Positions 13,752-57,198 of a stretch of DNA of 64,000 bases are shown here, piece after piece; within the stretch, counting starts at the first letter, position 1; each line of letters begins with the position of its first letter. This stretch comes from Candidatus Acidiferrum typicum (GTDB lineage: Bacteria > Acidobacteriota > Terriglobia > Acidiferrales > UBA7541). Both the position numbers and the translations under genes were made by a program. Location: positions 1 through 64,000 of the forward strand of contig JAOAPV010000084.1 in NCBI GenBank assembly GCA_025463055.1. The letters run 5' to 3'. The notes under the pieces are model-generated. The model ran no database searches. It saw only the letters and a list, made by a program, of their open reading frames with translations, and was not told the origin of the DNA.

Positions 13752-15165
13752 CGATCAGCTCCTCGGCTACGAGGTTGTTCGCCTGGCTACGAAAGCTCGT
13801 AGCCTGAGGAGCAACGGGCTCCTGTCTGAGACCCCGGATAAACACAGTCCATACTGTCTGCACGATCAGGCTAAGATCCAGAAATGGCGACCAGTTAGAG
13901 ATGTACTGCAAATCGAAACGTGCTTTCTCATCGGATGAGTGTTGCTCGCGCAGCCCATGTACCTGAGCGAGACCGGTCACACCAGCTCGAACCTTCAAGC
14001 GCTGCCGCTGCCAGTCCGAGTAGTATTTCACTCTCTCTGCCGATTCAGGCCGCGGGCCAACAAGAGACATATCGCCCTGCAAAACATTCCACATCTGCGG
14101 CAACTCAGTGAGACTCCACCTGACGAAGAGTCGCTCATATCGCTCCGGATTTGCCGCGTGCCGATCCACATTCAGCCGATACATTTCAAAGGGTGCTCCG
14201 CCCCGGCCGCAGCGGGATTCGCTTCTAAACGCCTTCCCCTTTTTGTTGTAGACCACTAGAGCAGCGAGACCAAGAACGGGCGAAGCAAAGACCAATATTC
14301 CTAGGCTCAATACGAAATCAACCGCTCGCTTGATGGCGAAACGAGCGGCCGAACGGTTAGGTTCCCGAATTGACAAAAGCGGGAGCCCATCGACCTCCAC
14401 TAATTCCGCCTTTGAAATATATAAGTCATACCAGTACGGAACGAGATATACCCGGATGGATGCTCGCCGACAAGAGGCAATGAGTTTTCGAACTTCTGGG
14501 CTATCGGGTTGCGGCATCGCGATAATGAGCTTCACTATCTTTTGTTGAACCAGAAGCTCCTCTACCTGCAGAGTCTTGACAGAAGTGAACGGTCCCTCCA
14601 GTGAACTCACGAAGCCGTTCGAGATCTCGGGGTCTCCAGGAAATAGAAATCCTACGATTTGAAAAGGCATTTCTGGGTGCGATGCAATTTTAGTCGCGAG
14701 TTCTCGAGCTACAGGTCCGTGCCCAAGAATCACGCAGCGACGATCTGCCGCATTTCTTAGCTCGGAGGTGACCAGAAAACGGACCAGACACCGCCCCCCA
14801 ACGATCCCGGGGAGATATGCAAGGGCAAAGTAGAACAGGACGAGACGGGAGTAGTAGAAATGCTGAGTGACGAAGGCAGCGGCCAATAAAACGACCATTA
14901 GAAACGAAACGGCTACGAACAGCTTGGAAACAATCGTGGGGAAATGCCACCCGCCCTTAAAGCCATCTAGGCTCATCTCGAAGTAAAGAAAAGTCCACGC
15001 CACAATGGCAGCGACCATCGCAAACGAATAGCTTTGAAAATGTTGCGCAAAATCGTTCACACCTTCCTGGCGACTGTATCGTAGGCTGATGCCAATTACT
15101 AAGGCACCGAGGACCCAGAGCAAATCGGCAGCCAGTATCAAATAGCGGATATTCTTAGCTCTCAT
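13735..15165 (-). CDS. WcaJ-like polyprenyl glycosylphosphotransferase with altered catalytic pair
   Basis: A 476-residue membrane protein with the layout of WcaJ/WbaP enzymes: four N-terminal membrane helices (residues about 5-110), a CoA-binding-like Rossmann domain (CVILGHGPVARELATKI, about 145-250), a membrane hairpin (about 285-305) and the C-terminal phosphoglycosyl transferase domain ending in NVLQGDMSLVGPRPE. Such enzymes load the first sugar phosphate onto undecaprenyl phosphate. Two key parts differ from the family: the usual DELPQ catalytic pair is Thr353-Glu354 (SLTELPQ), and the KFRSM block is replaced by YRLNV with a shortened segment after it. It may be inactive or altered. A canonical enzyme is encoded at 17242. 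Its stop overlaps hddA by 17 bases. Confidence 0.88.
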   Translation of the reverse strand: MRAKNIRYLILAADLLWVLGALVIGISLRYSRQEGVNDFAQHFQSYSFAMVAAIVAWTFLYFEMSLDGFKGGWHFPTIVSKLFVAVSFLMVVLLAAAFVTQHFYYSRLVLFYFALAYLPGIVGGRCLVRFLVTSELRNAADRRCVILGHGPVARELATKIASHPEMPFQIVGFLFPGDPEISNGFVSSLEGPFTSVKTLQVEELLVQQKIVKLIIAMPQPDSPEVRKLIASCRRASIRVYLVPYWYDLYISKAELVEVDGLPLLSIREPNRSAARFAIKRAVDFVLSLGILVFASPVLGLAALVVYNKKGKAFRSESRCGRGGAPFEMYRLNVDRHAANPERYERLFVRWSLTELPQMWNVLQGDMSLVGPRPESAERVKYYSDWQRQRLKVRAGVTGLAQVHGLREQHSSDEKARFDLQYISNWSPFLDLSLIVQTVWTVFIRGLRQEPVAPQATSFRSQANNLVAEELIDANRS

Positions 15166-17241: not shown

Positions 17242-17955
17242 CTATCTCCCTGATCCAGCAAAAACCTCACCAAGAGTCTTCAAGAGAATCCACAAGTCCA
17301 ACTTCGGGCTCCAACTACGGATGTATTCCAGGTCCAACCTGACCCAGTCGTCGAAATCTTTGACCTCATTTCTGCCGTTAATTTGCCACAAACAAGTTAC
17401 GCCTGGTTTCACTGTAAGCTTTTGTTTTTGAAAGTCGTTGAAACGGACATACTCAGTAACAAGTGGAGGCCTAGGACCAACCAAACTCATGTCGCCCTTT
17501 AGCACGCTATAGAGTTGCGGTAGTTCGTCCAAGCTATGCCGACGCATCCAGGCGCCGAGAGAAGTAATGCGTGGGTCATTGGTGAGCTTGAATACCGGCC
17601 CATCCATTTCATTTAATGATTCGAGTTCACTCTTCAACCGATCTGCATCGGGGACCATCGAACGAAACTTATACCCAATGAACGGTCTTCCTCTCTTCCC
17701 GACGACTCGCCAGCGGTAAAACACAGGACCTGGCGAGCTCAGCTTCACTGCAATCATAAGTGCGAGATAGAGAGGGGACAGAATTATCATTGTAATTGCC
17801 GAGCCCACGATGTCCATGAACCTCTTACACCCCACATTCGCGTAGCTGCCCCAGGCGGGGGAAAAGCTAACCATAGGGTATCGACTATCGCCTTGGTCTG
17901 AATGGGTGCACCCGGTCGAGCCAACCTTGGGCGGTTGAAATTCGAAATCGCTCAT
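17242..17955 (-). CDS. polyprenyl-phosphate sugar phosphotransferase (bacterial sugar transferase)
   Basis: A 237-residue small phosphoglycosyl transferase. After a non-conserved 40-residue N-terminus, CKRFMDIVGSAITMIILSPLYLALM is the re-entrant membrane helix, FIGYKFRSM and the SLDELPQ motif with Asp143-Glu144 form the active site, and GDMSLVGPRPP and KPGVTCLWQINGRNE complete the family signature. It should attach the first hexose-1-phosphate to undecaprenyl phosphate on the inner membrane and start repeat-unit assembly. It keeps all the residues missing in the WcaJ-like protein at 13735. The ATG at 17955 follows GAGAG by 4 bases. Confidence 0.93.
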   Translation of the reverse strand: MSDFEFQPPKVGSTGCTHSDQGDSRYPMVSFSPAWGSYANVGCKRFMDIVGSAITMIILSPLYLALMIAVKLSSPGPVFYRWRVVGKRGRPFIGYKFRSMVPDADRLKSELESLNEMDGPVFKLTNDPRITSLGAWMRRHSLDELPQLYSVLKGDMSLVGPRPPLVTEYVRFNDFQKQKLTVKPGVTCLWQINGRNEVKDFDDWVRLDLEYIRSWSPKLDLWILLKTLGEVFAGSGR

Positions 17956-18121
17956 CTTACTCTCTGGCTTCACGGTTGAATCTTTTCAGCCCGAGCACGC
18001 TGTGTAAATCGCCCAAATAAATCTCGGACGGGATTTCGGATAACGTTTCCACACCCTCGTCGGCTCTCGTAGGAGTCGCGTCGGTCTTCTTGAAGCGCTG
18101 GGAATAACTAGTTTTAAAGGC

Positions 18122-30185: not shown

Positions 30186-30686
30186 TCAAACTCCTTCGAC
30201 GTCGCCCGCTTCCACCTCAACGGCAACGGAGCGCTGAATCAAATCGAGCGAAATAACGAAGCGAACCCGGTTCTTCTTTCGCACTACGATACCTTCGAGA
30301 CCCGCGAGCGGCCCGCATTTGACACGCACGCGCCGCCCAACCTGCACATACGGATGCGGCTCGAGGCTCGCTTTGCGCTCCAGGCACGTTTGCATCGCCT
30401 CGATCTCTGAATCGCGCAGCGCGCACGGCATCCCGTTGAAGCCCACCAGCCGCGCCACTCCTGGAACCTGCAATACCTGAAGTCGATCGCGCAGCGCCAA
30501 TCGCACAAAAATGTAGCCAGGGAATAGCGGCATTTGCAGCTTCACGCGGCGGTCTCTCCACCGCCGCACCGATTCATATAGCGGAAGAAAATGCTCAACG
30601 GATCTTTGCACCAATTGAAGTGCCGCACGTTTCTCGTGGTTCGCGCTGGTGTACGCCGCGTACCAGCGCGGTTCGGTGTACTCCAT
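30186..30686 (-). CDS. NusG-like transcription antiterminator (UpxY/RfaH-type)
   Basis: A 166-residue NusG paralogue. The N-terminal NGN domain reads RWYAAYTSANHEKRAALQL, VKLQMPLFPGYIFVRLAL and VARLVGFNGMPCAL; the C-terminal KOW domain has VGRRVRVKCGPLAGLEGIVVRKKNRVRFVIS. The arrangement fits UpxY/LoaP/RfaH-type specialised NusG proteins, which let RNA polymerase read through long polysaccharide operons. The start is set at 30686, where GGGAA lies 8 bases upstream; the frame extends to 30806 with other starts (e.g. ATG 30764). Unusually it is the sixth gene, between the Wzz-like and flippase genes. Confidence 0.9.
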   Translation of the reverse strand: MEYTEPRWYAAYTSANHEKRAALQLVQRSVEHFLPLYESVRRWRDRRVKLQMPLFPGYIFVRLALRDRLQVLQVPGVARLVGFNGMPCALRDSEIEAMQTCLERKASLEPHPYVQVGRRVRVKCGPLAGLEGIVVRKKNRVRFVISLDLIQRSVAVEVEAGDVEGV

Positions 30687-30862
30687 CGGCAAATTCCCAA
30701 ATTCTTCACGCACGGCCCCTCGGGTCGCGCCGTGTGTTGTACTGTATGGATTTACTGTTTGCATAAACGTTGTTAAACCAGCTTCCAGACAGCTTCGCCC
30801 CGTCACTTACAGGGCGCTTTGTGACCTAACCCTTTTGCATTAAACTAGTTACAGCAAAAAAC

Positions 30863-32275
30863 CTAAGCTTGCTTGGTGCTGCCGTCGCTCTTGCGGATGC
30901 GCAGCCAGCGCCAGGCGCTGCCGTTGCCGGAATGTTCCCCTGAGCCGTTATGCGTGAACGCAGGGATGCGTGCCATCATCGTCGCGAAAACCTCTTGAGC
31001 GAACATCTTTCGCGGATCCTTTGTATCGGTTGCTTGCCATGTCTCGTTTCCCAACACCCACGCTCCTGCAAAGCCGAGTCCCAAAATCGTCCCAAGAACA
31101 ATTAACGGCAAGCGAGGTGGAAAGGACTTCTTATCCGGAATCTGAGCGATGTCCAGAACCTTCACCGTTGGAATTTCCTTCGCTTCTTGGACTTTGGCCA
31201 TCTCGTATTCTTTTGTGAGGGCTTCGAGAACGGCTTCCTGAATCCTCGACCGCCTGTAAAGGTCCGACCAGCTCACCGCGAGCAGTGGCAATTTCCTGAT
31301 TGAGGGGTACATGGAGTCGCCTGGCTGGTCCGAAATGCTTGTGGTGCTCTCGCCCTTGCCTCCCATTTTCTCCAGCTGACGCTTTAGTTCATCAACACGA
31401 GCCTTTGTCGTGCGCACGCGTGGGTTGTTATCCGTATAAATCTCACGCAATCCTTCATATTGCGATTGCGTTGCAATAAGCTGGCCTTGAATCATCGCGG
31501 CCGCCCCAACCATGGCTTTGCCCTGTTCTTTCACATCGATTGCCGTGTTCTTACTGGCAAACTCGCTGAAATTCTTCTCCGCCGCTTCTAAATCCCTGTT
31601 GACGCCTTGCAAACGCTCTTCGAGGAAGATTCGCTCGCGGCGCGCCGAAGAGGTGCTCAGCTCGGCCACTAGTTGATTAAGCTCTTCCACGTATGCCTGC
31701 CCCATCGCTGCGGCGCGTTGGGGGCTCTTGTCCGTTACGGTGATGGAGATGATCTGACTCTTGCGATCTACGGCAATCGATGTATGCGCCGCCAAGCTCT
31801 TCCGCGCATCCTCCATACGCGGATCCCCATAAAGCTTCCTCAAGTCAAACTGCTGGATCAACTTGTCTTGTACGGTGCGGCTGGTCAGGATGCCAACGAA
31901 AATGTCACTCGTGCTCCTAATGCCTAACAAGTTCCCAGCCATCCCCGCAAGGCCGCTACTACCGGCGGCACCTCCAGCGCCGGACATCATGTTAGCCACC
32001 ATGGCCAGACCGGAGCTCGACTGGTTATCCGGCGGCATCAAACGTGCCGTGGATTCGTACCGCGAAGGGATCAGCAGGGCGATCACAGTGCTCGCAAGCA
32101 GCGCGTACATCGCCACGCGGGATAACAACCCGCGACGCCGCCAAAGAAGTTGCAGGTGTGCAAGCGCTCCGTCGTTGGTCTCCAGTGTCTCGGGCGCCAC
32201 AAACGTTTCGGGAACGTCGCGGTCGGGCGATTCGGGCAAAGGCTGTCGGACTGGAGCGCTGCTCGCAAAATTCAC
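30863..32275 (-). CDS. Wzz/GNVR-type polysaccharide chain-length protein
   Basis: A 470-residue inner-membrane protein of the polysaccharide co-polymerase class. A membrane helix lies around residues 50-70 (RVAMYALLASTVIALLIPSR), a Wzz domain follows, then a long coiled-coil (LEERLQGVNRDLEAAEKNF) and a second helix (LPLIVLGTILGLGFAGAWVL) with a short cytoplasmic tail. It lacks the Walker motifs and tyrosine cluster of a fused BY-kinase. The start is GTG at 32275 in a GTGA overlap, with GGAGA 6 bases before it; a longer frame to 32461 would overlap the previous gene by 190 bases and is not used. Confidence 0.92.
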   Translation of the reverse strand: MNFASSAPVRQPLPESPDRDVPETFVAPETLETNDGALAHLQLLWRRRGLLSRVAMYALLASTVIALLIPSRYESTARLMPPDNQSSSGLAMVANMMSGAGGAAGSSGLAGMAGNLLGIRSTSDIFVGILTSRTVQDKLIQQFDLRKLYGDPRMEDARKSLAAHTSIAVDRKSQIISITVTDKSPQRAAAMGQAYVEELNQLVAELSTSSARRERIFLEERLQGVNRDLEAAEKNFSEFASKNTAIDVKEQGKAMVGAAAMIQGQLIATQSQYEGLREIYTDNNPRVRTTKARVDELKRQLEKMGGKGESTTSISDQPGDSMYPSIRKLPLLAVSWSDLYRRSRIQEAVLEALTKEYEMAKVQEAKEIPTVKVLDIAQIPDKKSFPPRLPLIVLGTILGLGFAGAWVLGNETWQATDTKDPRKMFAQEVFATMMARIPAFTHNGSGEHSGNGSAWRWLRIRKSDGSTKQA

Positions 32276-34836
32276 GGCTGGTCTCCATTCCCTGACGCGC
32301 TTCCCGCTGCACCCTGGTCGGAATGCCTGAACAACTTTTGCGGCTGGAATAAGATCTCTACCGTAGCGGAAACGTTTGTCGAACGGCTTGATTGAATCAC
32401 AGGGAAGAGCCACTGCTCGTATTGCACCGTGCCTGACAGGCTCAGATTGGGGCGTACCCAATAATCACCGCGGGCCCCCACATCGGTAAGCGTTCCACCT
32501 CCGGAAACGAATTGCTGGCTCACTTTTTCATGCCGGTAGTTGACCTGAATGCGATTCTTCGGCGTGAACCAGTAATTCATCCATGCTTGCGCGCCCTGTC
32601 CATCCCTGCCAATCCAGCTGCCGATCAAATTCCCGTCATTCCGGTACCCGGTCCTCCAAGTCCCATTGAAATAAAAAAAACCATGGCCAACTAGGCCGCC
32701 AGCTGGTAAGTCCGTGAAAACACCTTCGACTCGCAGGTCCAGTTTTGGAACAAGCGGGAAATGAGATAGGTACATTCCCGCGTGCCAGGCCGATCGGTCA
32801 GCATACGCGATCGGAGAAAACTGATCGTCTGCAAAGCCGTCGCCGTAGAATGACAGCCACTTGCGTAAACCCGGCAAGCGATAGCTGAAGTCCAATCCTG
32901 AACGACGGTCACCAGGTTTGTTCACATTCCCAAATAGTTCATTTCCTCCGCTGAATAGACTCCGGACAAAATTGTGCGTGGTGAGAGGATAGCCCGGTCC
33001 CCCGTAAACCGTGGTCCGGGAGAACCCAAATTCGAAGTTGGAAGTCGGTTTGAAGCTGAATCGCTGCCCATGCAAAATCGGCTGAGGCGACAGTGATTGA
33101 CCGAATTGGCCAACGAAACCGGAGGGATTCACCATGAATTCGGAACCCTCGAGTTGACCGACGAAGACTTCTATTCGCAGCGAGCCGAGCCAACTAAGGA
33201 TTCCGGGCATTTTGATAGGAGTGACTCGATTTACCCTGAACATGTTGATCGGAGTTGCGTTGTTGCTGTACATCATGGGGCCGCCATCGCCTGGTCCCCA
33301 CCAAAGACTTTGCTTTCCGAAAGAAATCTGCCAATTCGACCACATGACCCCGACATACGAATCAAGAAGTTTGACGTTGCTGACGGAAGGCCGACCAACA
33401 GCAGGGGGCAGGCCGTTATTGTCCGCAGTTTGAATCGCCTCGCGTGCTGTTAAAGGAAGGGCGGGGACAGCGGGGGCAGTTTGCAACTCGCCACGAATGT
33501 ACGTCACCCATCGTCCTCGTGTAGCGTAAGCCGAAAAGCCGTTCGTCGTGCTCCAGCCTTGGCCATAAGGGCGTCCAAAATCGTTAATTTGCGTTTGCGC
33601 AAAATGGAAGCCATCGTTGAGCGGCGCGCCGGAAATGTTTTCAGCGCGCGAATACAGAGACTCCAAACGAAATGCACCACCACCATTACTGCCCGCTCCG
33701 TCAGTCTCCGACTTGAATTCGCGCTGAAGCGCATCGACAAGTGTCGATGCCTCACTATTTTCGGTCCCAACGGCCGACAACTGATCTGCCGCATCATTCA
33801 CAAGCCGCGCACACTCGCCGCGCGTCCACGGGCGCATCCCCATGAACTCATCGTTAATCGCCCCAAGCCCCGCAAGGCGCTCCATCGCCGGGTAAATCCA
33901 ACTGTCTAGCGGTACATACGGGGAGCCCAAGTTGCCTACGCTGCGTTCCGAACGGTCATGCGCTTCGGCGTAGGTTTCCCATTCGCCGCCGCCAATTCTG
34001 GGGTCGTGGTGTTTGCGGTAGACGTACATGCCTTCGAACCAGCCGATGGCGCTGCCGACCAGTACGTCGGAGGGAAAATGCTGCTTGCCAGTTATGCGCG
34101 AGGCGCTGACGGCTGAGGCCAGTCCGTAAACGAATAGCGAGGTCAGCGGGCCGGGATATTCATGTGCGATAACGCTGGCTATCGACCATACGGCTGCTGC
34201 GTGTTGCGACGGAAATGAAACGCCACCTTGGCCAAATCCGCCTCGATAGTTGTCCTGCAACGGGCGTTCACGACCGAAGGCGTACTTCAAGGCATAGACC
34301 GGCGCGAGAGTATCAATAGCGGCTTCGCCTGCAAGAATGCCGGTTTCAATTTTGTGATCGTCGTGCGTGAGGTGGCCCCACAAATACAGACCTCCTCCAA
34401 TTCCGATCATCGACGCGAGCCCGTAGTTCGAAATATCGTTGCTGTACTTAATACGATTTGGAGAATTAGAGAGGTGCCGACTGTACGTCGAGTCGGTCGC
34501 AAACATCGCTGCGGCCGCGCCGCCCATTGGCACGAGCCAGTCCGCATCAGCCCAATGCAGATTCTTCGGGCCGATCCAGAGCGCTTTCTGATCTTCAGCG
34601 ATGTTCTTCAGCAAATGCAGCCCCACGCTATTCTCGCGGTCTTCCCACTGCGCAACCGGTCGCGCCAACGTTTCGGGCTTGCTAACTTTGCGATCTGGGC
34701 TTCCGGTTTCATCCGTGCTCTTGTTTGCCCCAACACTCGCTTGCGGCCCCTGTGGCATGGCATAACAACTCGTGCCCAACACCAAGGCCCCAAGCAAGCT
34801 AAGTCCGAGTCCTAAACCTGTCCACCAACGAACCAT
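32272..34836 (-). CDS. PAP2 phosphatase-capsule assembly Wzi fusion
   Basis: An 854-residue exported protein (signal peptide with LGLGLSLLGALVLGTSCYA). Residues about 95-275 form a PAP2 acid phosphatase: KYAFGRERP (184-192), FPSQHAA with His212, and SRITGKQHFPSD with His253 and Asp257, the three motifs of the family. From about residue 330 the sequence is a Wzi-like outer-membrane beta-barrel with many aromatic turn motifs (SFGKQSLWWGPGDGGPM, FKPTSNFEFGFSRT). Wzi anchors polysaccharide at the surface; the PAP2 part may recycle undecaprenyl pyrophosphate or act on an export intermediate. Start at 34836, 11 bases after the SLBB gene; earlier in-frame starts overlap it. Confidence 0.88.
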   Translation of the reverse strand: MVRWWTGLGLGLSLLGALVLGTSCYAMPQGPQASVGANKSTDETGSPDRKVSKPETLARPVAQWEDRENSVGLHLLKNIAEDQKALWIGPKNLHWADADWLVPMGGAAAAMFATDSTYSRHLSNSPNRIKYSNDISNYGLASMIGIGGGLYLWGHLTHDDHKIETGILAGEAAIDTLAPVYALKYAFGRERPLQDNYRGGFGQGGVSFPSQHAAAVWSIASVIAHEYPGPLTSLFVYGLASAVSASRITGKQHFPSDVLVGSAIGWFEGMYVYRKHHDPRIGGGEWETYAEAHDRSERSVGNLGSPYVPLDSWIYPAMERLAGLGAINDEFMGMRPWTRGECARLVNDAADQLSAVGTENSEASTLVDALQREFKSETDGAGSNGGGAFRLESLYSRAENISGAPLNDGFHFAQTQINDFGRPYGQGWSTTNGFSAYATRGRWVTYIRGELQTAPAVPALPLTAREAIQTADNNGLPPAVGRPSVSNVKLLDSYVGVMWSNWQISFGKQSLWWGPGDGGPMMYSNNATPINMFRVNRVTPIKMPGILSWLGSLRIEVFVGQLEGSEFMVNPSGFVGQFGQSLSPQPILHGQRFSFKPTSNFEFGFSRTTVYGGPGYPLTTHNFVRSLFSGGNELFGNVNKPGDRRSGLDFSYRLPGLRKWLSFYGDGFADDQFSPIAYADRSAWHAGMYLSHFPLVPKLDLRVEGVFTDLPAGGLVGHGFFYFNGTWRTGYRNDGNLIGSWIGRDGQGAQAWMNYWFTPKNRIQVNYRHEKVSQQFVSGGGTLTDVGARGDYWVRPNLSLSGTVQYEQWLFPVIQSSRSTNVSATVEILFQPQKLFRHSDQGAAGSASGNGDQP

Positions 34837-34847
34837 TAAAGTTCCGA

Positions 34848-37800
34848 TCAGTAACGCAACGCAATAAATATCGTGCTTGCAACAGATGACGCCACTTGGG
34901 TAGCCAAGAACAGCGTCTGCCACTGAACGCCGCCGCCGATTGCCTTTTCCGGAACAACAACTGTGTCTCCAGGCTGCAATACAGCGCTAAGAGAGGGTCC
35001 CGACCACAAACCTTCCTTCGCGCCTATAACAGAGCCATCCGCGCGGATCACAAAAATCGCTTTCTTGTTAGCCACTGCTGTGGGACCGCCAGATTGACTG
35101 AGGTACCATTTAGCGCTTTTTCCTGGGCGATAAGAAACCGCCGTCGGATTGAAAACCTGGCCGGTGACCATAACAAAGCTGGGACGCTTGGGAATAACAA
35201 GCGTATCTCCCGCTCTGACTTCCACGTCGCCCGCAGTGTTTTTCCAGCGATTCATGTCGGGCGAGATCCGCATAGTTACCCGCCCTATCGGTACGTTCGT
35301 TCCCAATTGGGTCAGAGCGTTTTGATACTGCCGCAACGCATTTTCCTTTGCCCGTTTCTGATTCGCATCGCCTTCCGGCAGGAGTTCCACATTATTTTGC
35401 AAGTCCTTCACGCGAAGCATCAGCTGCGTTTGCTCTTTCGTTTGGAGTTCGCGGACTTGAGCTCTCTCCAAGATCGCGCCATAAACATACGCGTCCTGTT
35501 GGAACCCTCCTGCGCGTTCGAGAACCGAGCTAAGGCGCTCGCCGGGACGAATTCCATACGTTCCGGGATGCTTCACTTCGCCCTTTACGCTGATGGACGC
35601 GCCAATATCATTCCAACCCGGAAGCTGGCGAATCGTGAGCACGTCGCCGTTGCTCAAGGGCAAGTTGGCGCTCGCCTCTCCGGACAGTGCTGCTGAAATT
35701 GGGATGGTTTGCTGTTGTCCGGTCAATTGTCCGTGGTCTGGCCACAGATAATGCGTTAGATCGGCGGTTTGCGTATCAGCGCTCGGCTTCAGCCCGCCCC
35801 CGACGCGAATCAGATCAGCGACTGTCATGTTAGTCGTCAGCGGATAACGGCCCGGCTTTCCGACTTCTCCCTGGACGTAAGCGCTCGCCGGCTGAATGGC
35901 GTTCGGACTGCGGTGAATCAAGAGGCGGTCGCGAGGCTGCAGCACAATATTGGCGGTCGGGTCACCTTCAAGGGCCAGACTCAGGCTGACGCTGAAGATC
36001 TTCGACTTGCCATCCGGGAGATATCGAAACACTTGCGCATCTTCAATTTTTGCGTCCGGCGCAAGTCCACCGGCGAGGTGCACGGCATCGCTCAAATGAA
36101 TTTCGCCCGAGGTGCGGTACGTTCCAGGCCCACGCACATCGCCCCAGACCGAGACTGTGGGTGGGTTCTCAAAATCAAAGCGGCTAAAAATGCGCACCGT
36201 GTCCATTGCATGAAGCAGAGGCGATTGAGAAGGATTCGCCAACGCTTCCGCCAGACTGAAACTCTCCACGCTCGGGTGGAAATCAGGCGCATTCAGACGA
36301 ATAATTTCCGCATACTGGTTCGCGGGTTCCGGCAGCAGATCCTTGTACGATGAAACTACATCAGTGACGTGCATGTCCGCGTGATAGGAATAACGGCCTG
36401 GGCGGGACACGTGTCCCTCAAGGTAAACTGCATCCTGGTTATATGGCGCGATGGGGAAAACACGGATACGGTCGCCATCGTGAACCTCGAACGACTCCAG
36501 TTTTTTCGTCACTTCTAAATCGCTATCGATCTGTGGAAGATCGAAACTCAACATGGTTTGCTTCTCGTGCGCTGCGAGCCGCTGCACTTCGATGTGACGT
36601 AGCGTGGCAGTCGGCAGCAGTCCACCAGCGAGTTCGAGCACGCTGGCCAGGTTCTTCTCGTCCTTCAGCTCGTAGATCGCCGGACGTCGAACCATTCCCT
36701 CGACTGTCACTTGGGCTCCGATCGTGGGCACCAGCACGGTGTCCCCGTTTTCGAGCCGTTGCATGTTGGACTTCACTCCGTGGAGCAGCAAATCGTACAA
36801 ATCCACGACCTCGATTAGCTGGTCGCCACGGTAGTGCTTCACAATTCGAAGCGATCCCTTTTGAGTTGGACCACCAGCAACGAAAAGCGCATTAAGGGGT
36901 GTGGACAGCGAGCTCACGTCGTATGCACCCGGATTTGCAATGTCCCCAACCTCATAGATCCGGATTGTCCGAAGCCGGGCGAGCGAGACATCCGCGGACA
37001 CACGGCGGAATTCGGTCCTCAAAAGCTGCTGTAAGCTCTCCTGCACGTTGGCCAAGCTCTTGCCGCTCACCAGTAACGGGCCGACCTCCGGAAGGCTTAC
37101 ACGACCTTCTCGATCAACTACCCGGTAGATTCGCTGTGTCGTACCGCCCCACAAATTGATCGTCAATCCATCGCCCGGTCCGACCACATAATCCGGGCCT
37201 GCGGGTAGATCCATCGGAATCATTTGCAAATCGCGCGTTCCGTTCTGGAAAACTTCCGAACCAAATCGCCTTGGAACTGCGGGCCGCGGTACAGCCTGTA
37301 TGTACATGTCGTAGAGGGATGGGATGTCGTTATACGGGCTCGCAGCTCTTACCAGCTCGGGTGCTGGTGCCACGGGTCTCGGCTGACGTCGCCGTTCAAG
37401 CAGTGACATCGAATTGGGCGACAAAGGCGTGGAAGACATCGAAGGCAAGGCCGCATTAGCAGCGTCAGGACTCAAACGCGACAATTCGGACATGCTTGGT
37501 TCCGGCCTGCCTGAACCTACGCCGTACGTCGCGAACGCATCGACCAAGTTGCGATCCCCGGTGTTTGCAACGGATAGAAGGTCACCATTTTGGCCGTTGG
37601 CTCCCGAGCTAGCTCGGAGCGTGGTGAAATCACTGGATCCTGCATTGGAGAGGTTGAATGAGGATGCGGCCTCGCTCAGACTTCCTAACGGGAGCTGGGG
37701 AGAAGAGCTTCCAAATTCGTCCATGCCGTCCCCGTATTGCGCGCGCAAAATTTGGTTCGAATCCGTTCGGGGCATGCTGGGCAAATTGAAATCATTCGGG

Positions 37801-38444
37801 CCGATGTTCGATGGCGGCAGATTCTCTTGCAGTTTCTGCATTTCAGGCGACTGCTGGCCCGCCGGCTTTTGGTCATTGTTGCACTGCTCATCAAGTTGCG
37901 AGTCGCAGGCGGCGGCTGCGTTCCGAACCTTTTCCATCCGTTTCTGGCTGGCAATTGCGCGTTCCTGTTCCTGAGCCTGCGCGAGCCACTTTGTTCGTTC
38001 CTGAACCAGCAAATCGCGCTCTCTAGCTGCCTCGGATTCAGGATTGAGTTTGGGGACAAGGTATCCGTATCTTTGAACGAGTAGCGTCGCTATGGAACGA
38101 AATTGAACGTCCAGTTCGAGGCGATCAAATATGGCCTCATCGGTCAGGTCTGAGTCGCTGATGATCTGGCCGTGGCTCGTCGCATCCTTGGCAGTCCAGC
38201 GTTTCAATTCCACCATTAGCCCAGCGTCCTTGATCAGCACAGCCTTGATGTCCGTCGCTGAAGCTGCGGCGCGGCTCAAATTTTCGCGGCCGAGTTCCGA
38301 AATTTGACGGGTACCGGATTGCCGTTCCTGCGCGCTCCCCAAACTGGCGCACAACAGTAATACGGAAAGAAAACACAGAAACCGAAGGGTTGTCTCTCCA
38401 GTGCGGGCGGCTCTTAGTGTGAAACTTTTTTTCTGGATCTTCAT
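34848..38444 (-). CDS. SLBB-domain polysaccharide export protein (Wza-like)
   Basis: A 1198-residue exported protein, much longer than E. coli Wza (379). After a signal peptide (ending LLLCASLGSAQE) and a low-complexity 350-residue region, the poly-export domain reads YVVGPGDGLTINLWGGTTQRIY with REGRVSLPEVGPLLVSG. At least five SLBB domains follow (for instance VTVEGMVRRPAIYELKDEKN, VYLEGHVSRPGRYSYHADM, VSVWGDVRGPGTYRTSGEI, VKGEVKHPGTYGI). The protein ends in a helix-forming tail (VASSVASTIFIALRY), compatible with an outer-membrane pore. Start set at the ATG at 38444 with GAGG 8 bases upstream, overlapping the upstream receiver gene by 4 bases. Confidence 0.92.
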   Translation of the reverse strand: MKIQKKSFTLRAARTGETTLRFLCFLSVLLLCASLGSAQERQSGTRQISELGRENLSRAAASATDIKAVLIKDAGLMVELKRWTAKDATSHGQIISDSDLTDEAIFDRLELDVQFRSIATLLVQRYGYLVPKLNPESEAARERDLLVQERTKWLAQAQEQERAIASQKRMEKVRNAAAACDSQLDEQCNNDQKPAGQQSPEMQKLQENLPPSNIGPNDFNLPSMPRTDSNQILRAQYGDGMDEFGSSSPQLPLGSLSEAASSFNLSNAGSSDFTTLRASSGANGQNGDLLSVANTGDRNLVDAFATYGVGSGRPEPSMSELSRLSPDAANAALPSMSSTPLSPNSMSLLERRRQPRPVAPAPELVRAASPYNDIPSLYDMYIQAVPRPAVPRRFGSEVFQNGTRDLQMIPMDLPAGPDYVVGPGDGLTINLWGGTTQRIYRVVDREGRVSLPEVGPLLVSGKSLANVQESLQQLLRTEFRRVSADVSLARLRTIRIYEVGDIANPGAYDVSSLSTPLNALFVAGGPTQKGSLRIVKHYRGDQLIEVVDLYDLLLHGVKSNMQRLENGDTVLVPTIGAQVTVEGMVRRPAIYELKDEKNLASVLELAGGLLPTATLRHIEVQRLAAHEKQTMLSFDLPQIDSDLEVTKKLESFEVHDGDRIRVFPIAPYNQDAVYLEGHVSRPGRYSYHADMHVTDVVSSYKDLLPEPANQYAEIIRLNAPDFHPSVESFSLAEALANPSQSPLLHAMDTVRIFSRFDFENPPTVSVWGDVRGPGTYRTSGEIHLSDAVHLAGGLAPDAKIEDAQVFRYLPDGKSKIFSVSLSLALEGDPTANIVLQPRDRLLIHRSPNAIQPASAYVQGEVGKPGRYPLTTNMTVADLIRVGGGLKPSADTQTADLTHYLWPDHGQLTGQQQTIPISAALSGEASANLPLSNGDVLTIRQLPGWNDIGASISVKGEVKHPGTYGIRPGERLSSVLERAGGFQQDAYVYGAILERAQVRELQTKEQTQLMLRVKDLQNNVELLPEGDANQKRAKENALRQYQNALTQLGTNVPIGRVTMRISPDMNRWKNTAGDVEVRAGDTLVIPKRPSFVMVTGQVFNPTAVSYRPGKSAKWYLSQSGGPTAVANKKAIFVIRADGSVIGAKEGLWSGPSLSAVLQPGDTVVVPEKAIGGGVQWQTLFLATQVASSVASTIFIALRY

Positions 38445-38839
38445 TGCTGCCACCTCGGAGTAAGCTGCGTTTTCCCCCTGAGGGCGCCTAGCACACCGGC
38501 CTCAGAAGCCTCGATCTCGTTCGACTGCACCTTCAGGGACGCCCAATAAAACATAGAGCTGTTGCGGTCCGCCGATACGGCAATCACCTTCATCTGCGGA
38601 TAGCTCTGAAGAATCGAGTGGCACACTTGCGGCAATCGATTGAATTTCTCAAGGGCTACGATCAGAAAGTCCGGCCGCGTTTTCGCCACTGCGCTTGCCA
38701 ATTCCGCCTCGTCCTGTACTTCGCCAACAATCTCGATATCCGGCTGCTCAGAAATGGTCGCCACCATCAGTTCCCGCATAAGTCGGGGCCGATTCGCCAC
38801 TAGCACACGTATAGGTTTCATCGCTTGTTCTGTAGTCAC
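38441..38839 (-). CDS. receiver-like protein without phospho-acceptor Asp (second copy)
   Basis: A 132-residue single-domain protein with the alpha/beta layout of response-regulator receivers: RVLVANRPRLMRELMVATI, IEIVGEVQDEAELASAV, PDFLIVALEKF and MKVIAVSADRN. Canonical acidic residues are missing: the beta-1 end is ANRP in place of an Asp-Asp pair, and the beta-3 phospho-acceptor is Ala (PDFLIVAL). The segment MFYWASLKVQSNEIEASEAG is shared with the neighbouring copy and is not typical of receivers. Its last codons overlap the export gene start by 4 bases. Start is GTG 38839 or ATG 38821. Probably a phosphorylation-independent regulator or signalling adaptor; partner unknown. Confidence 0.75.
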   Translation of the reverse strand: MTTEQAMKPIRVLVANRPRLMRELMVATISEQPDIEIVGEVQDEAELASAVAKTRPDFLIVALEKFNRLPQVCHSILQSYPQMKVIAVSADRNSSMFYWASLKVQSNEIEASEAGVLGALRGKTQLTPRWQQ

Positions 38840-38874
38840 AAACCACCCCGTTGCGCGTTCAAGCTTTACAAGTT

Positions 38875-39258
38875 TTAAACTGGTTCCCCGGCCCCCATGG
38901 TCGCGATGTTTCGCACCGCATTTAAGATTCCCTGCTCTGAAGCCTCAATCTCACTCGAGTGAATATCAAACGATGCCCAGTAAAACACGCTGCAGTTCTC
39001 CCGCGACGCTACAGCGATAATGCGCAAGCCCGGATGATCGCGCAGAAGCCTGTCGCAGAGCGGCGGTCGCTTGGACGGCTCGTCGAGCGCAATCACCAGC
39101 AAATCAGGTGTAACTTCCCGCACCCGCTCCGCTATTTCTGCCTCGTCGGCAACTTCGCCGACGATCTCGATGCCTGCCTCATCCGCCAGAGTTGCAACAA
39201 TCAGCTCTCGCATGAGGTTCGGACGATTAGCCACAAGAACGCGAACTGACCTGGTCAT
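38875..39258 (-). CDS. receiver-like protein without phospho-acceptor Asp (first copy)
   Basis: A 127-residue paralogue of the protein encoded next to it, in tandem 35 bases away. It has SVRVLVANRPNLMRELIVATL, GIEIVGEVADEAEIAE, PDLLVIALDEP (Ala57 where the Asp should be) and VFYWASFDIHSSEIEASEQG. Shared ANRPxLMREL and FYWAS...EIEASE motifs show duplication and a common function, with both copies lacking the phosphorylation site. It is the first gene of the polysaccharide locus, so it may govern or report on the state of the operon. ATG at 39258, AAGGGG upstream. Confidence 0.75.
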   Translation of the reverse strand: MTRSVRVLVANRPNLMRELIVATLADEAGIEIVGEVADEAEIAERVREVTPDLLVIALDEPSKRPPLCDRLLRDHPGLRIIAVASRENCSVFYWASFDIHSSEIEASEQGILNAVRNIATMGAGEPV

Positions 39259-39459
39259 GGCGCACGTACCCCTTAGTGTGGATAATTGTCTTGGAATCTG
39301 TAGAAAAATGAAGGCTCAATAAGGCACTGTCTAGGAAACTAGTGCGATAAGGCGGCAAGCACTAAATCACCACCACGCAGTACCCATTCCGTACCAACCT
39401 GTTTCTCGGGGGGCTTATAAAAAACACAAACTCGCGGGAATATACATTAGCGGTATTCC

Positions 39460-39619: not shown

Positions 39620-40291
39620 ATGCAGATCAGCGAAAAACAATCATTTTCGCCGACTAAAGCTTACGTTCTAGCTGAAAACCGCCTCCTGCGCCAGACGTTA
39701 GTGCGACTCTTCCGCAAACGCAGCGAAATTGACGTTGTAGGTGATAACTGCTTTTCCGACTCCGCAATCGAGGACATAGCTTCCGCTAAATCCGACCTTC
39801 TTCTTCTCGATTGTCCCGACACGAAACATACGTCGGAAGATTGGTTGGATAGTCTTCAGGAATCTATTCCCGAGATCAAGATTGTCTTGTTCGGGATGAG
39901 TGAAGACCCCGACTTCTTTCTACGAGCTGTCCGGCGAGGGATAGCGGGCTACGTTCTAAAAAGCGCCTCCGCAGCCGACCTGCTGGATGCAGTCCGGACC
40001 GTGGCTCAAGGCGAAGCCGCCTGCCCACCCAAATTCTGTAAGGTACTGTTCAAAACCTTAGCCGCTGCGACCATCAAAGTTGAGGACGAACGCGCCACGA
40101 CCCAATTCGATCTCACCCATCGTCAACGACAGCTAATGTCCCTAGTCGCAATGGGCCTAAGCAATAAAGAAATCGCGGCTAATCTGAACTTGTCGGAATT
40201 CACAGTCAAGAATCACATCTATCGGGTAATGAAGCAGGTCGACGCCCAAAGTCGACATGAGGCGGTCTCGCTGATTGGGGACGCTGACTGA
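39620..40291 (+). CDS. LuxR/NarL-type response regulator
   Basis: A 223-residue two-domain regulator. The receiver (residues 13-125) keeps the phospho-acceptor Asp64 (LLLLDCPD) and Lys114 (GYVLKSAS), and its beta-1 end has AEN. The C-terminal helix-turn-helix (about 162-220) has the LuxR signature: LTHRQRQLMSLVAMGLSNKE and LSEFTVKNHIYRVMKQV. It is divergent from the first receiver-like gene, 361 bases away, and is the natural candidate regulator of the polysaccharide operon. No sensor kinase is in the window. The ATG follows AGAGGGGG, which sits in a hairpin loop (39595-39615). Confidence 0.92.
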   Translation: MQISEKQSFSPTKAYVLAENRLLRQTLVRLFRKRSEIDVVGDNCFSDSAIEDIASAKSDLLLLDCPDTKHTSEDWLDSLQESIPEIKIVLFGMSEDPDFFLRAVRRGIAGYVLKSASAADLLDAVRTVAQGEAACPPKFCKVLFKTLAAATIKVEDERATTQFDLTHRQRQLMSLVAMGLSNKEIAANLNLSEFTVKNHIYRVMKQVDAQSRHEAVSLIGDAD

Positions 40292-44433: not shown

Positions 44434-44776
44434 CAGCTACAATCTTGCAGTAAAGGCTTCTTACAAAACTAGCTTTCACCCCTACAAGACACAGCGGCCC
44501 TTGCCGTCATTTGCTGACGACAACAGGCTGCAGTCGTTGGAATAAAGCTATTCACGAAATGAAATGATATCTAACATCCTTTGACGTTGCAAACAATCTT
44601 TTGGGTGCCGAGCAATTCAGTTTTTTGTTACTGAGACCTTGATTTTGACTGCGCGCGTAGCGTTCGCCGAGCTCTCGACAACATTTGATCGCCAAATCCC
44701 TCGAACTCAAAACCAGCTTTCTGTCCGAAGTTCCGTTTCACAAATCCACATTCCACGCTGTGATACCCTCAAGGCG

Positions 44777-46735
44777 ATGAGGGTCCTCGCACTTCTCTGT
44801 CTATTCGCCGCTAGCACTTGCGCCGCCCCCCAACCCACCGACGACCGGATTCCCCATCCTAACGTCTTCCTCATCACGATCGACACACTCCGGGCCGACC
44901 ATGTCCGCTGTTATGGTTACGATCCTATTCAAACTCCAGCGCTCGATCAGCTCGCAAAGCAAGGCATCCGTTTCACACAAGCATTCACACCTAGCCCGAT
45001 TACAAATAGCTCGCACACCAGCATTCTGACCGGCCTGCTGCCAAGCTCGCACGGCGTTAGCGACTTCGGCGTTCCTCTTGCGCCCACTCATCCCACGCTC
45101 GCAGAATTACTCTCGAAGCGCGGCTACCATACTGCGGCGTTCATCGGTGCCGTGATCCTCGACAGCAAGCGCCTCGCGCCGGGCCTCGATCGCGGCTTCG
45201 AGTTCTACGACAATTTCCCGGAGCAGACCGCAACTAAGTCCAGGTGGGGGCGCCTCGAACGTCGAGGCATGCAAGTGGAGCAGGACGCGGAATCCTGGCT
45301 CAATGCGCATCCCGCTGGCTCGCACTTCGCCTGGCTGCATTTCTACGACCCCCACGATCCCTACGAGCCTCCGCTGCCATACTCGAACATATATAAGGAC
45401 CGGCTCTACGACGGCGAGATTGCCTACGCGGACTCGGCGCTAGGCCACTTCCTCACTTACCTGAAAAAACGGGGCTGGTACGACGAAGCATTAATCGTCG
45501 TGGTTGGAGATCACGGCGAAGGACTCGGCGAACATCACGAAGATACGCATGGCATTTTTCTCTACGATTCGACCACACACGTCCCGTTGATCGTGAAGCT
45601 GCCGCAAAATCGCGACACAGGCAAACAGGTTGATGCGCAAGTCCGGACCACGGACATCCTGCCGACTATCTTGGAGCTGCTCGGCCTCGCCATGCCAGAG
45701 AAATTGGATGGCGCTTCGTTGACTCCTCTTATCGCCGATACAGAAACTACCGCTCGCACCGTCTTCGGCCAAACGGACTACCCATTGCGGTTCGGGTGGG
45801 CTCCGCTGCGCTCTGTCCGAAGGGAAGGCTTCAAATTTATTGAAGCGCCCAATCCCGAACTTTACGACCTGCGCTCAGATTCCGGAGAACTGCGCAATAA
45901 ATATGAGCCGTGGAATGCCGACGTCCAGAAGCTGCGCAAGACATTGGCGGAACTGAATTCAGCGTCGCCGGCCTCCGGAAAAGCTTCGGCCGCCGCCGTC
46001 CCGGCGGGAACGATCGACGAACTTCACGCGCTCGGTTACTTGGGTCCTGCCGACGCCCGAAGCGCGACCGATGTGCCCGAACCATCGTTGCTGCCGGATC
46101 CCAAGGACAAAATAGAAGAACAGAACCTGCTGCACGCCGCTATGATTGCAACGGAAAACGAGGAACCCGCGAAAGCTCGTGCTTCACTAGGAAAGCTGCT
46201 GCAATCGGACGACAAGTCCGTAGTCGCCTTGTCTATGCTTAGCCGCATTGAAATCGGTTCCGGAAATTACAATACAGCGCTCGAGTACCTGCGGCGTGCA
46301 CGTGAGCTGCGCCCCGACGATGTCGCATTGACCTTGGATTACGCGCGAGCACAGGAATTGAACGGCGATCGATCCGGCGCATGCGCCACGCTGCAAGCGA
46401 CTCTAAAGGCCGATCCAAATCAGTTCCCTGCCCGACTCTTGCTGGGAAAACTCTATTTCCGTTCCGGGAATGCAGATGCAGCGCTGAACCAACTTGAAGA
46501 CGCAGCGCTCCTGCAACCTGAAAACGTAGAAGCAAAAACAACTCTTTCGCAGGTTTTAATCAGTCAGAAGAAGTTCGCCGACGTGGTGGAGCTGCTGGAA
46601 CCGGTTGCCAACTCCTCCAGCAACAATGCAGATGTTTTTGAATTCCTCGCACAGGCATACAGTGGGCTTGGAAGATTGAAGGAAGCGCAACGCGCCGAAG
46701 CCCGCGTCAAAACACTCAAGAAACCGAAGGCGTAG
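44777..46735 (+). CDS. sulfatase-like (alkaline phosphatase superfamily) protein with TPR repeats
   Basis: A 652-residue secreted protein. Start at 44777: AAGG precedes the ATG and a signal peptide (MRVLALLCLFAASTCA) follows; the frame extends 46 codons upstream without support. Residues about 28-390 are a sulfatase/phosphodiesterase domain (VFLITIDTLRADHVRCYGYD, GDHGEGLGEH, metal-binding Asp-His). The formylglycine motif CxPxR is absent; the site reads PITNSSHTSILTG. Residues about 440-640 are TPR repeats (YNTALEYLRRARELRPDD, GNADAALNQLEDAALLQPEN). Substrate unknown: sulfate ester, phosphodiester or phosphonate chemistry all possible. Divergent from the TonB receptor at 40843. Confidence 0.9.
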   Translation: MRVLALLCLFAASTCAAPQPTDDRIPHPNVFLITIDTLRADHVRCYGYDPIQTPALDQLAKQGIRFTQAFTPSPITNSSHTSILTGLLPSSHGVSDFGVPLAPTHPTLAELLSKRGYHTAAFIGAVILDSKRLAPGLDRGFEFYDNFPEQTATKSRWGRLERRGMQVEQDAESWLNAHPAGSHFAWLHFYDPHDPYEPPLPYSNIYKDRLYDGEIAYADSALGHFLTYLKKRGWYDEALIVVVGDHGEGLGEHHEDTHGIFLYDSTTHVPLIVKLPQNRDTGKQVDAQVRTTDILPTILELLGLAMPEKLDGASLTPLIADTETTARTVFGQTDYPLRFGWAPLRSVRREGFKFIEAPNPELYDLRSDSGELRNKYEPWNADVQKLRKTLAELNSASPASGKASAAAVPAGTIDELHALGYLGPADARSATDVPEPSLLPDPKDKIEEQNLLHAAMIATENEEPAKARASLGKLLQSDDKSVVALSMLSRIEIGSGNYNTALEYLRRARELRPDDVALTLDYARAQELNGDRSGACATLQATLKADPNQFPARLLLGKLYFRSGNADAALNQLEDAALLQPENVEAKTTLSQVLISQKKFADVVELLEPVANSSSNNADVFEFLAQAYSGLGRLKEAQRAEARVKTLKKPKA

Positions 46736-55254: not shown

Positions 55255-57198
55255 TTATTTGGGTTGCGCGGAGGGTTTTAGCTGTTCCGCCTCAGCGTGT
55301 TCGCGAGCGGCATTCTCCTGCTGTCCCAGTTTCGCGTACACCTCTGCAAGGAACTGGTGGGCCTCCGCGGACTTAGGTTCCACGCGGGTGGCTTTTTCCA
55401 AGTTAGGGAGCGCGCCAGCAGCATCGCCCTCTAGTGAAAGGATTCGGCCCCGTAACAGGTTCGCACGGTAATGATCCGGGTCGAGTTGAAGCGTCACATC
55501 CAGGATCGCCATCGCCTCGGGGACGCGATCAGTCCGAGCATAAATAGCAGCCAACGAAAAGCGCGCATCCGTCCAGTCCGGACTGTGTTCGACCACGATC
55601 TCTAAATGTGTCGCCGAATTCTTGAGATCCCCCTTCTGATACATGGCGAGCGCAATTTCGTAGTGACCCATCATCGAATCCGGAACCAACTGGATGGCTT
55701 TATCCAGATGCAAAACCGCTTTGTCGTACTCCCGCATTTCCTTGTAAGCGACGCCCAAGAAATACTGCGCGTGCGGAATTTGCGGATCAGCCGCTACTAC
55801 TTGCTCGAGCAGGGGAATTGCCGATAGTACCTTGCCGTCCTCGATTTTCAAATCAGCATCGTGCAAATCGTTAGCCACCTGAATGTGCGTCTTCGGATCG
55901 ACACCGCCGAATCCCGTGTCCGTTCGGGAGGACGCCATATAGCCCATCGCACGCAACTTCTCCACACTTTGTGGATCGAGTGAACCACGCGCCGCCTCCG
56001 GTGCGTTAGCGCTCGCCCGCTTTGAAAAGCTGTCGAGTTCCGCGGCGACGCGTACAGCAGCGAGCTTATTTTTTTCAAACAAGTTGCGCGCTTCACCAGG
56101 ATCTTCAGTCGAGTTATAGAGCTCCGGCTGGGGCGCCTTAACGTACAGAAAGTTTCCGGTCCGCAAAGCCTCCAGCGAACTCCACCCGAAACCGCGATGC
56201 GAATACTCGCTTTCGGAGAAAGATGGGCGGTCCTTTGCGGCCCTCATCCGGACCAGCTGCAAAAGAGATTGTCCTTGCATGGCCGTTGGCGCAGGCGATT
56301 GCATAGCCGCAAGGATGGTCGGGGCGACGTCGACCAGGCTCGCACGCGCGGAAATTTTTTGTCCGGCAAAATTTGCCCGCGGAAGTCTGATGAGCAGCGG
56401 TACGCGAATTGTCGAGTCGTAGAGAAAAACGCCGTGCGTATTCTCGCCATGCTCGCCAAGCGATTCGCCGTGGTCGCTCATGACGGCAATTAAAGCGTCA
56501 TCGTAGAGCCCCGTGCGCCGGAGGCCTGCCAACAGTTTGCCGACCGTATTGTCCACGTATGCGACGCAAGCGTCGTATGGGGCGTTCGCGTAGCGTTCTT
56601 TAAATGGTGACGGAGGATCGTATGGGTCGTGCGCATCCCAGAGATGCACCCAAACGAATACAGGACCATGGTGATTCTTCTCAAGCCATTTCAGCGCGCG
56701 GGTAACCGTATCTTCTCCGCGCCGTTGGATAGAACCGAGACGGCTCTCGCCTTTCTTTCCGCGATGGAATCCGGCGTCATACATATCGAATCCACGCTCG
56801 AACCCAGGCGAGAACCCGTTTTGCGGGTCGAGAATAATGGAACTGACAAATGCGGCTGTGCGGTAGCCGCGTGCGCGCAAAAGTTCCGGCAGGTAAGGAA
56901 TGGATTCTGGCAAGCGGCTTCCGAAATCGCGGACGCCGTGGAAGTGCGGGTAGGTGCCGGAAAGGATGGTGGCGTGGGAGACAGGGGTCAGTGGCGCCTG
57001 TGAGTATGCCCGCTCGAAGATGACACCCTGGCGGGCCAGAGCGTCCAACTGTGGCGTCAGACCCTGCGTCGAGCCGAGAAAACCCATGCGGTCGGCGCGG
57101 ACGGTATCCATCGTGATCAGAATGACGCTGGGTGGATCGGCCGCCGCCGCGAATGACGGCAAAGCAATGAGAACAAAGAGAACCCAGGATCGCCGCAT
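55255..57198 (-). CDS. sulfatase-like (alkaline phosphatase superfamily) protein with TPR repeats
   Basis: A 647-residue secreted paralogue of the protein at 44777. It has a signal peptide (MRRSWVLFVLIALPSFAAA), VILITMDTVRADRMGFLGS, and VSHATILSGTYPHFHGVRDFG where the nucleophile would be; the formylglycine CxPxR motif is missing. AVMSDHGESLGEHGENTHG gives metal ligands. TPR repeats occupy about residues 430-640 (KAIQLVPDSMMGHYEIALAM, LQLDPDHYRANLLRGRIL). Likely a periplasmic hydrolase with a TPR platform for partners; substrate unknown. Part of its 3' coding region is duplicated and decayed at 54559-54706. Confidence 0.9.
   Translation of the reverse strand: MRRSWVLFVLIALPSFAAAADPPSVILITMDTVRADRMGFLGSTQGLTPQLDALARQGVIFERAYSQAPLTPVSHATILSGTYPHFHGVRDFGSRLPESIPYLPELLRARGYRTAAFVSSIILDPQNGFSPGFERGFDMYDAGFHRGKKGESRLGSIQRRGEDTVTRALKWLEKNHHGPVFVWVHLWDAHDPYDPPSPFKERYANAPYDACVAYVDNTVGKLLAGLRRTGLYDDALIAVMSDHGESLGEHGENTHGVFLYDSTIRVPLLIRLPRANFAGQKISARASLVDVAPTILAAMQSPAPTAMQGQSLLQLVRMRAAKDRPSFSESEYSHRGFGWSSLEALRTGNFLYVKAPQPELYNSTEDPGEARNLFEKNKLAAVRVAAELDSFSKRASANAPEAARGSLDPQSVEKLRAMGYMASSRTDTGFGGVDPKTHIQVANDLHDADLKIEDGKVLSAIPLLEQVVAADPQIPHAQYFLGVAYKEMREYDKAVLHLDKAIQLVPDSMMGHYEIALAMYQKGDLKNSATHLEIVVEHSPDWTDARFSLAAIYARTDRVPEAMAILDVTLQLDPDHYRANLLRGRILSLEGDAAGALPNLEKATRVEPKSAEAHQFLAEVYAKLGQQENAAREHAEAEQLKPSAQPK

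Follow-up and report, generated by a model that had tools for sequence, protein, structure and literature searches.

Stand-alone pseudo-receivers that usually head polysaccharide operons in Terriglobia, with a NarL/LuxR-type regulator as candidate partner

Bacterial pseudo-receivers keep the receiver fold without the key phosphorylation residues, and the way they are switched on and off is termed a mystery in the abstract of a 2025 review (PMC12632262). EpsW of Myxococcus xanthus is a single-domain receiver devoted to exopolysaccharide production (PMC12802240), the receiver of FrzS has a degenerate phosphorylation site (PMC1974792), BldM and WhiI are atypical regulators that pair as a heterodimer, and capsule genes are a target of RcsA-RcsB (PMC4125116). 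The window analysed here, the whole stretch of 64,000 nucleotides at positions 1 to 64,000 of contig JAOAPV010000084.1 from the draft genome (5.3 Mb) of Candidatus Acidiferrum typicum, carries two small proteins, a and b, at the head of a polysaccharide operon, with a gene for a NarL/LuxR-type regulator (hereafter LuxR) beside them. Our comparative analysis places both proteins in a family of pseudo-receivers that stand alone and have receivers of the NarL type as relatives; we tentatively read the family members as partners of this regulator. The pseudo-receiver kind itself is already known; the family is unnamed, and no description of it, of its placing in operons or of the RGTACY element upstream of it was found in the literature searched.

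Both open reading frames reported in an earlier note on this DNA exist as described, with PDLLVIAL in a, PDFLIVAL in b and the motifs VANRP, FYWAS and EIEASE, and Ala does occupy the phospho-acceptor site and Ala-Asn the acidic pair in both. The two proteins score 18.5 and 20.5 bits against the Pfam receiver family Response_reg (PF00072) and do not reach its gathering score of 30.2 bits, and no C-terminal helix-turn-helix (HTH) domain above the Pfam cut-off is present in either. Residues were tabulated over 70 full-length members (65 core and five divergent), with five incomplete members excluded. None of the homologues has an intact acceptor Asp (0/65 core and 0/5 divergent members): the site carries Ala in 46, Thr in 10, Gly in six and Ser in three core members, and Ala, Pro and Thr in two, two and one of the divergent ones. 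The first position of the acidic pair is Ala in 64 core members and Gly in one, the second Asn in 63 and Ile in two, and the Thr/Ser site after strand beta4 is Ala in 56, Ser in seven, Asp in one and Pro in one; a has Ala there and b Ser. The stretch ahead of the Lys site that closes beta5 is rebuilt, which leaves the placing of this site uncertain; the column closest to it (position 100) holds His (42), Arg (10), Gln (7), Lys (3) or Glu (3). P51, C68, P76, E105 and S107 are invariant in 65/65 core members and W94 is kept in 64/65; by comparison with receivers, the conserved residues would fall in helices 1, 3 and 5 and in the loops that surround the former active site.

Structure prediction also returned the receiver layout claimed in the earlier note. 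The AlphaFold (AF2) model of a, built from an alignment of four sequences, reached a mean predicted local distance difference test score (pLDDT) of 71.3 and matched the M. tuberculosis NarL receiver in Foldseek (expect value (E) 2.2e-5, template modelling score 0.62); in VIA-align the top row, with which many receivers were tied, gave Z 12.2 and a root-mean-square deviation of 3.1 over 107 aligned residues. Matches of a 27-member family profile in the PDB were VraR, DevR, NarL and CheY-type receivers (best E 2.5e-6). According to these models, the fold of the pseudo-receiver is that of a receiver. After strand 4, both AF2 models have strands instead of helix 4 (89-94 and 99-101 in a; 94-100 and 107-109 in b), with low pLDDT over the replacement (~56-65 in a, 45-50 in b). 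Divergent members have turn-like sequences between the two strands (KDGH in L132, DSGD in L134), and L125 has a two-residue deletion at this turn. Taken together with the models, this suggests that helix 4 has likely been lost in the family.

Protein a is 90% identical to its counterpart in the nearest named relative, 'Candidatus Acidoferrales bacterium', which taxonomy places, spelled Acidiferrales, in the class Terriglobia of the phylum Acidobacteriota. Genome searches supplied the family members, and a contig search with protein a alone gave one near relative only. Matches were found in 27 of 61 relatives (search with protein a), in 50 of the 95 genomes of the order and in 63 of 399 genomes of the class, the order's 50 included, spread over 15 of the 136 genera searched. 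Since a and b are 48% identical and members occur in about half of the order's genomes, the observation is not due to chance. Profile searches covered Acidobacteriota genomes, viral contigs and the PDB. Phylum-wide, 10 of 396 genomes gave matches, two of them in the window's class, seven partial and one full length; the partial ones (positions 2-92) are what ordinary receivers would give and were kept out of the family. The full-length members comprise 69 from the window's class and one from another class, L126 (genome G618; 67-68 bits), which is among the divergent members. The viral-contig match, a single receiver-like match of 57 residues, was set aside, as were the 11 plasmid records found with protein a, which matched weakly (best E 8e-7) and, where annotated, are named response regulators. 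The family table has 75 rows, in which the twins of the window and those of L060 take two rows each, and L060 and L066 probably represent a single operon split by a contig end. Family genes are truncated or interrupted in L054, L064 and L067; in L064 (9858-10340) the gene runs, after ~79 profile positions, into unrelated sequence that is excisionase-like by eye, which looks like an insertion or an assembly break.

The neighbourhood of the family gene was measured with profiles on stop-to-stop frames, counting export genes at loci with at least 1.5 kb of downstream sequence and LuxR genes at loci with at least 1.5 kb of upstream sequence. In 60 of 68 loci a Poly_export/SLBB gene follows downstream, at most 1.2 kb away and on the same strand; the link with polysaccharide loci is conserved. 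The eight loci without it are L058, L064, L067, L124, L126, L134, L132 and L135, the last two of which have an export-gene match 2.1 kb away. A PAP2-Wzi gene is present in 41/57 loci, Wzz in 47/56 and a NusG-like gene in 34/56. On the other side, a NarL/LuxR-type gene stands within 1.5 kb of the family gene in 50 of 69 loci; L051 (at a contig end), L054, L056 and L150 were counted as lacking it, though a shorter LuxR match lies near the gene. All 52 pairs of pseudo-receiver and LuxR genes divide evenly into 26 divergent ones, from 24 distinct loci, and 26 co-directional ones. L126 (7620-10200) has its family gene between two NarL/LuxR-type genes (Pfam) and upstream of a PP-binding carrier-protein gene; a reading frame downstream of the family gene is ketosynthase-like by eye, and no SLBB match occurs in the 11.6 kb examined.

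The LuxR gene of the window is divergent from a and b, as the earlier note stated; its description as canonical did not hold. The receiver of the window's LuxR has Ala-Glu at the acidic pair and Gly at the Thr site, with Asp and Lys kept. None of 50 distinct LuxR partners has Asp or Glu at the first acidic position. At the second, 23 have Glu and four have Asp; 41 keep the acceptor Asp and 30 the Lys, and at the Thr site two have Thr or Ser and 31 have Gly. This degeneration of the partner receivers makes kinase regulation appear doubtful for the whole module, as judged from the residues. No histidine kinase was found by the Pfam scans of the window, which covered the 41 larger open reading frames besides a, b and the LuxR gene.

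Pseudo-receiver and regulator have also diverged in a matched manner. Distances between pseudo-receivers and those between LuxR receivers gave a partial r of 0.61 given SLBB (37 loci; 0/2000 permutations), and given SLBB, WZI and WZZ together (29 loci) r was 0.66 for the HTH part and 0.40 for the receiver part of LuxR (0/1000 permutations each); these permutation tests leave shared inheritance in. With all other genes removed, the value for the pseudo-receiver and the HTH part was 0.61, next to 0.18-0.28 for operon-gene pairs and 0.17, 0.17 and 0.04 for the pseudo-receiver against SLBB, WZI and WZZ.

A further shared trait of the family is a DNA repeat upstream of its gene with the consensus R-GTAC-Y. 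In the 350 bp upstream of the family gene (73 regions, 25.55 kb), GTAC occurs in 246 copies, or 9.63 per kb, compared with densities of 2.21 in 209 other gaps and 2.03 in the remaining sequence of the loci. Exact GTAC pairs at 11-bp spacing number 33 versus none in the other gaps, and those at 12 bp 13 versus one. At least two GTAC at 55-215 bp upstream were found in 56/73 regions versus 407/5000 random 160-bp windows of other gaps. The regions themselves are diverged, sharing at most 18% of 10-mers, and the 64 regions with less than 5% shared 10-mers still gave 9.64 GTAC per kb and 31 pairs at 11 bp. Sigma-70-like promoter fits were weak and inconsistent, and a MAFFT alignment of upstream regions was uninformative. 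The TAC core of the element resembles the NarL heptamer, TACYYMT, which makes LuxR the natural candidate binder of the repeats. Ten unlinked LuxR paralogues have 28 GTAC copies in 5.85 kb of upstream sequence (4.8 per kb); within 600 bp upstream, L187 has none and L186, L190 and L191 have one each. In seven such paralogues (L185, L188, L189, L190, L191, L192 and L193) a common GTACC element, with a GGGACT-like sequence after it, stands ~280-335 bp upstream of the point where the profile begins.

The best single reading of the pseudo-receiver, to which we give a probability of about 0.45, is that it acts, independently of phosphorylation, as a partner of the NarL/LuxR-type regulator. In favour are its linkage with a degenerate LuxR, the matched divergence, the two LuxR-type neighbours of L126 and the upstream element common to the family; the BldM-WhiI heterodimer and RcsA-RcsB are precedents (PMC4125116). 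The pseudo-receivers would be among the first products made when the polysaccharide operon turns on, and would bind the receiver of the regulator. NarL-type receivers dimerise via alpha1/alpha5, and this face would be the likeliest contact, although its choice is a guess. The regulator is envisaged on the RGTACY units upstream of the operon, often one helical turn apart, where binding of the pseudo-receiver might shift it between homodimer and mixed forms; such a shift could set the output of the operon, by feedback or by co-activation, without phosphate. Repeat binding by LuxR, the heterodimer, its interface and the direction of the effect are what we infer from the observed family, residue losses, gene linkage, degenerate partner and conserved repeats. 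In a more specific version, which describes a regulatory module of Terriglobia, the phosphate-free pair would consist of a stand-alone pseudo-receiver without helix 4 and a NarL-type regulator with a degenerate phosphorylation site; it would act on RGTACY repeats in helical phase, and the pseudo-receiver would be the subunit that feeds back from the product side on the polysaccharide operon. We give this version a somewhat lower probability.

Several observations weigh against the partnership with LuxR. Once all other genes are removed, pseudo-receiver and LuxR receiver reach no more than 0.27, and the value between the halves of one and the same LuxR protein is as low as 0.09, so that the divergence measure is noisy; co-inheritance of neighbouring genes could also be the source of the divergence values. 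A fully supported clade of six members (L048, L050, L052, L057, L058 and L068), which includes a third paralogue of the window's genome, has no LuxR neighbour and keeps the export gene in five of six loci. Five of the six genomes carry a LuxR of the same subfamily elsewhere; in the remaining one, G023, none was found at E 1e-45. The density of GTAC is 10.2 per kb at loci without a nearby LuxR, 9.6 at divergent and 9.2 at co-directional ones. In the window's own genome GTACN7GTAC is not enriched (19 places versus 37 for the reversed pattern), which puts the window's pair alone at chance level and leaves its significance to the family as a whole, and no clear palindromic operator was found, exact palindromes being common to at most three of 24 regions. 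Nearly all known dimers of pseudo-receivers use part of the alpha4-beta5-alpha5 face, according to the review (PMC12632262), and the predicted loss of helix 4 would damage this face. The pairing with the LuxR receiver put forward in the earlier note as one possibility is partly supported, by the linkage and by partial r values of 0.40-0.66, and weakened by the noise of the measure and by the LuxR-less clade.

The main rival, which we consider unlikely, places control after translation: the pseudo-receiver would bind a pathway component in the cytoplasm, such as the large sugar-phosphate transferase that initiates synthesis, as a permanently 'on' analogue of EpsW. EpsW is a single-domain response regulator that activates the transferase EpsZ (PMC12802240), and the window encodes a large and a small transferase. 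The position of the family gene in line with the export gene, retained also by most of the LuxR-less clade, agrees with such control. Asp58, which EpsW requires, is on the other hand absent from the family, the transferases lie ~21-25 kb downstream rather than adjoining the family gene, and in L126 the examined stretch shows genes of the NarL/LuxR type next to the family gene but lacks an export gene.

With lower probability still, the old active-site face might bind a sugar nucleotide, a lipid-linked intermediate or cyclic di-GMP (c-di-GMP) and report to the regulator. Such a ligand sensor, which can be likened to JadR1, RedZ, ShkA and KaiA, would account for the strict conservation of A10, N11, P13, W94, E105 and S107, expected by comparison with receivers to encircle the former active site. 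Pseudo-receivers that bind ligands are known from the review (PMC12632262); no binding motif was identified here, and the conserved residues may be structural. A redox or oligomer switch via Cys68 in helix 3 is improbable. This residue is present in 65/65 core members, and Cys-based switching is described for RitR and Hp1021 in the same review (PMC12632262), whereas Cys68 is missing in two of the five divergent members and there is no second position at which the majority of members have Cys. The position matching Cys68 is buried in CheY, which also counts against a switch. That the proteins are degenerate leftovers without function, as the damaged genes of L054, L064 and L067 and a C-terminal remnant in L129 might imply, is very unlikely in view of five invariant positions over 65 diverged members, the place kept before the export gene and the spread over 15 genera of the class.

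The earlier note laid stress on the tandem pair at the head of the operon. The pair is indeed there; its weight was overstated, as complete pairs among the 75 rows occur only in the window and in one near relative (L060, whose contig is also that of L037). L129 has a C-terminal remnant of a second pseudo-receiver (9508-9723, plus strand) directly after an intact one. In the tree (124 columns; 18 of 67 inner branches open), a stands mainly with members of its own genus and b with members from other genera of the family, in supported sets of 10 and 14 rows. This grouping in different sets suggests that the pair was probably assembled from two lineages rather than by recent duplication. The twin arrangement is incidental.

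The features of the window are collected in the table below. Genes a and b are separated by 35 nt, and the stop codon of b overlaps an in-frame ATG of the SLBB gene as ATGA (38441-38444), which suggests translational coupling. Minus-strand genes continue from 39258 down to ~7.6 kb, mostly with polysaccharide functions (Pfam), and the label of a 31-kb polysaccharide operon given earlier is a fair one, judged from gene order and Pfam functions. One of its proteins joins a PAP2 phosphatase domain to a Wzi capsule-assembly domain. The NusG-like protein is perhaps an operon-specific elongation factor similar to RfaH; in five loci of another family (L119, L120, L122, L123 and L125) a NusG-like gene directly follows the pseudo-receiver gene. 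Elsewhere in the window, two sulfatase-TPR proteins (44639-46735 and 55255-57198) are encoded near three large CarboxypepD_reg/OMP_b-brl_4 outer-membrane proteins.

Table. Features of the polysaccharide locus in the window (positions are those of the 64,000-nucleotide stretch)
Feature	Position	Strand	Evidence
Pseudo-receiver a, 127 amino acids, first gene of the operon	38875-39258	-	Open reading frame, family search, AF2 model
Pseudo-receiver b, 132 amino acids, GTG start, second gene of the operon	38441-38839	-	Open reading frame, AF2 model, tree
Poly_export/SLBB polysaccharide export protein; in-frame ATG at 38444-38442	34848-38453	-	Pfam
PAP2 + Wzi (capsule assembly) fusion protein	32272-34923	-	Pfam
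Wzz chain-length protein	30863-32461	-	Pfam
NusG-like protein inside the operon	30186-30806	-	Pfam
Remaining polysaccharide genes: flippase-like, glycosyltransferases, methyltransferases, nucleotide-sugar and dTDP-rhamnose enzymes	7618-30131	-	Pfam
Two sugar-phosphate transferases, small and large (initiating)	17242-17973 (small); 13735-15165 (large)	-	Pfam
NarL/LuxR-type regulator, degenerate receiver (AEN at acidic pair; Asp and Lys kept), divergent	39620-40291	+	Pfam, partner alignment
GTACN7GTAC, two GTAC units at 11-bp spacing, local copy of the RGTACY array	39380-39394	none	

Nothing on the control of polysaccharide operons in these soil bacteria was found in the literature searched, and the family offers a handle on how such operons may be controlled. 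A phosphate-dead receiver that usually stands beside a regulator with an eroded switch hints at control that does not depend on phosphate. The family makes a compact test case: a single domain that lacks an output domain and usually comes with the same kinds of partner gene and target operon, and with a DNA element that is conserved. The reviewed pseudo-receivers are alike in having a receiver fold without key phosphorylation residues (PMC12632262); the family described here differs in being stand-alone, in having lost the acidic pair and the acceptor Asp altogether, in falling below the Pfam receiver cut-off, in the predicted strands at the place of helix 4 and in usually heading polysaccharide operons. 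FrzS shares a receiver domain with a degenerate phosphorylation site, but this domain is part of a larger motility protein and its alpha4-beta5-alpha5 face is present and essential (PMC1974792). EpsW is likewise a single-domain receiver serving exopolysaccharide production, but it has and needs a phosphorylatable Asp58 and the kinase DifE (PMC12802240), while the family has no such Asp. In RcsA-RcsB and WhiI-BldM, finally, an atypical protein modulates a regulator of the LuxR/NarL type; RcsA and WhiI carry their own DNA-binding domain (PMC4125116), whereas a and b have none.

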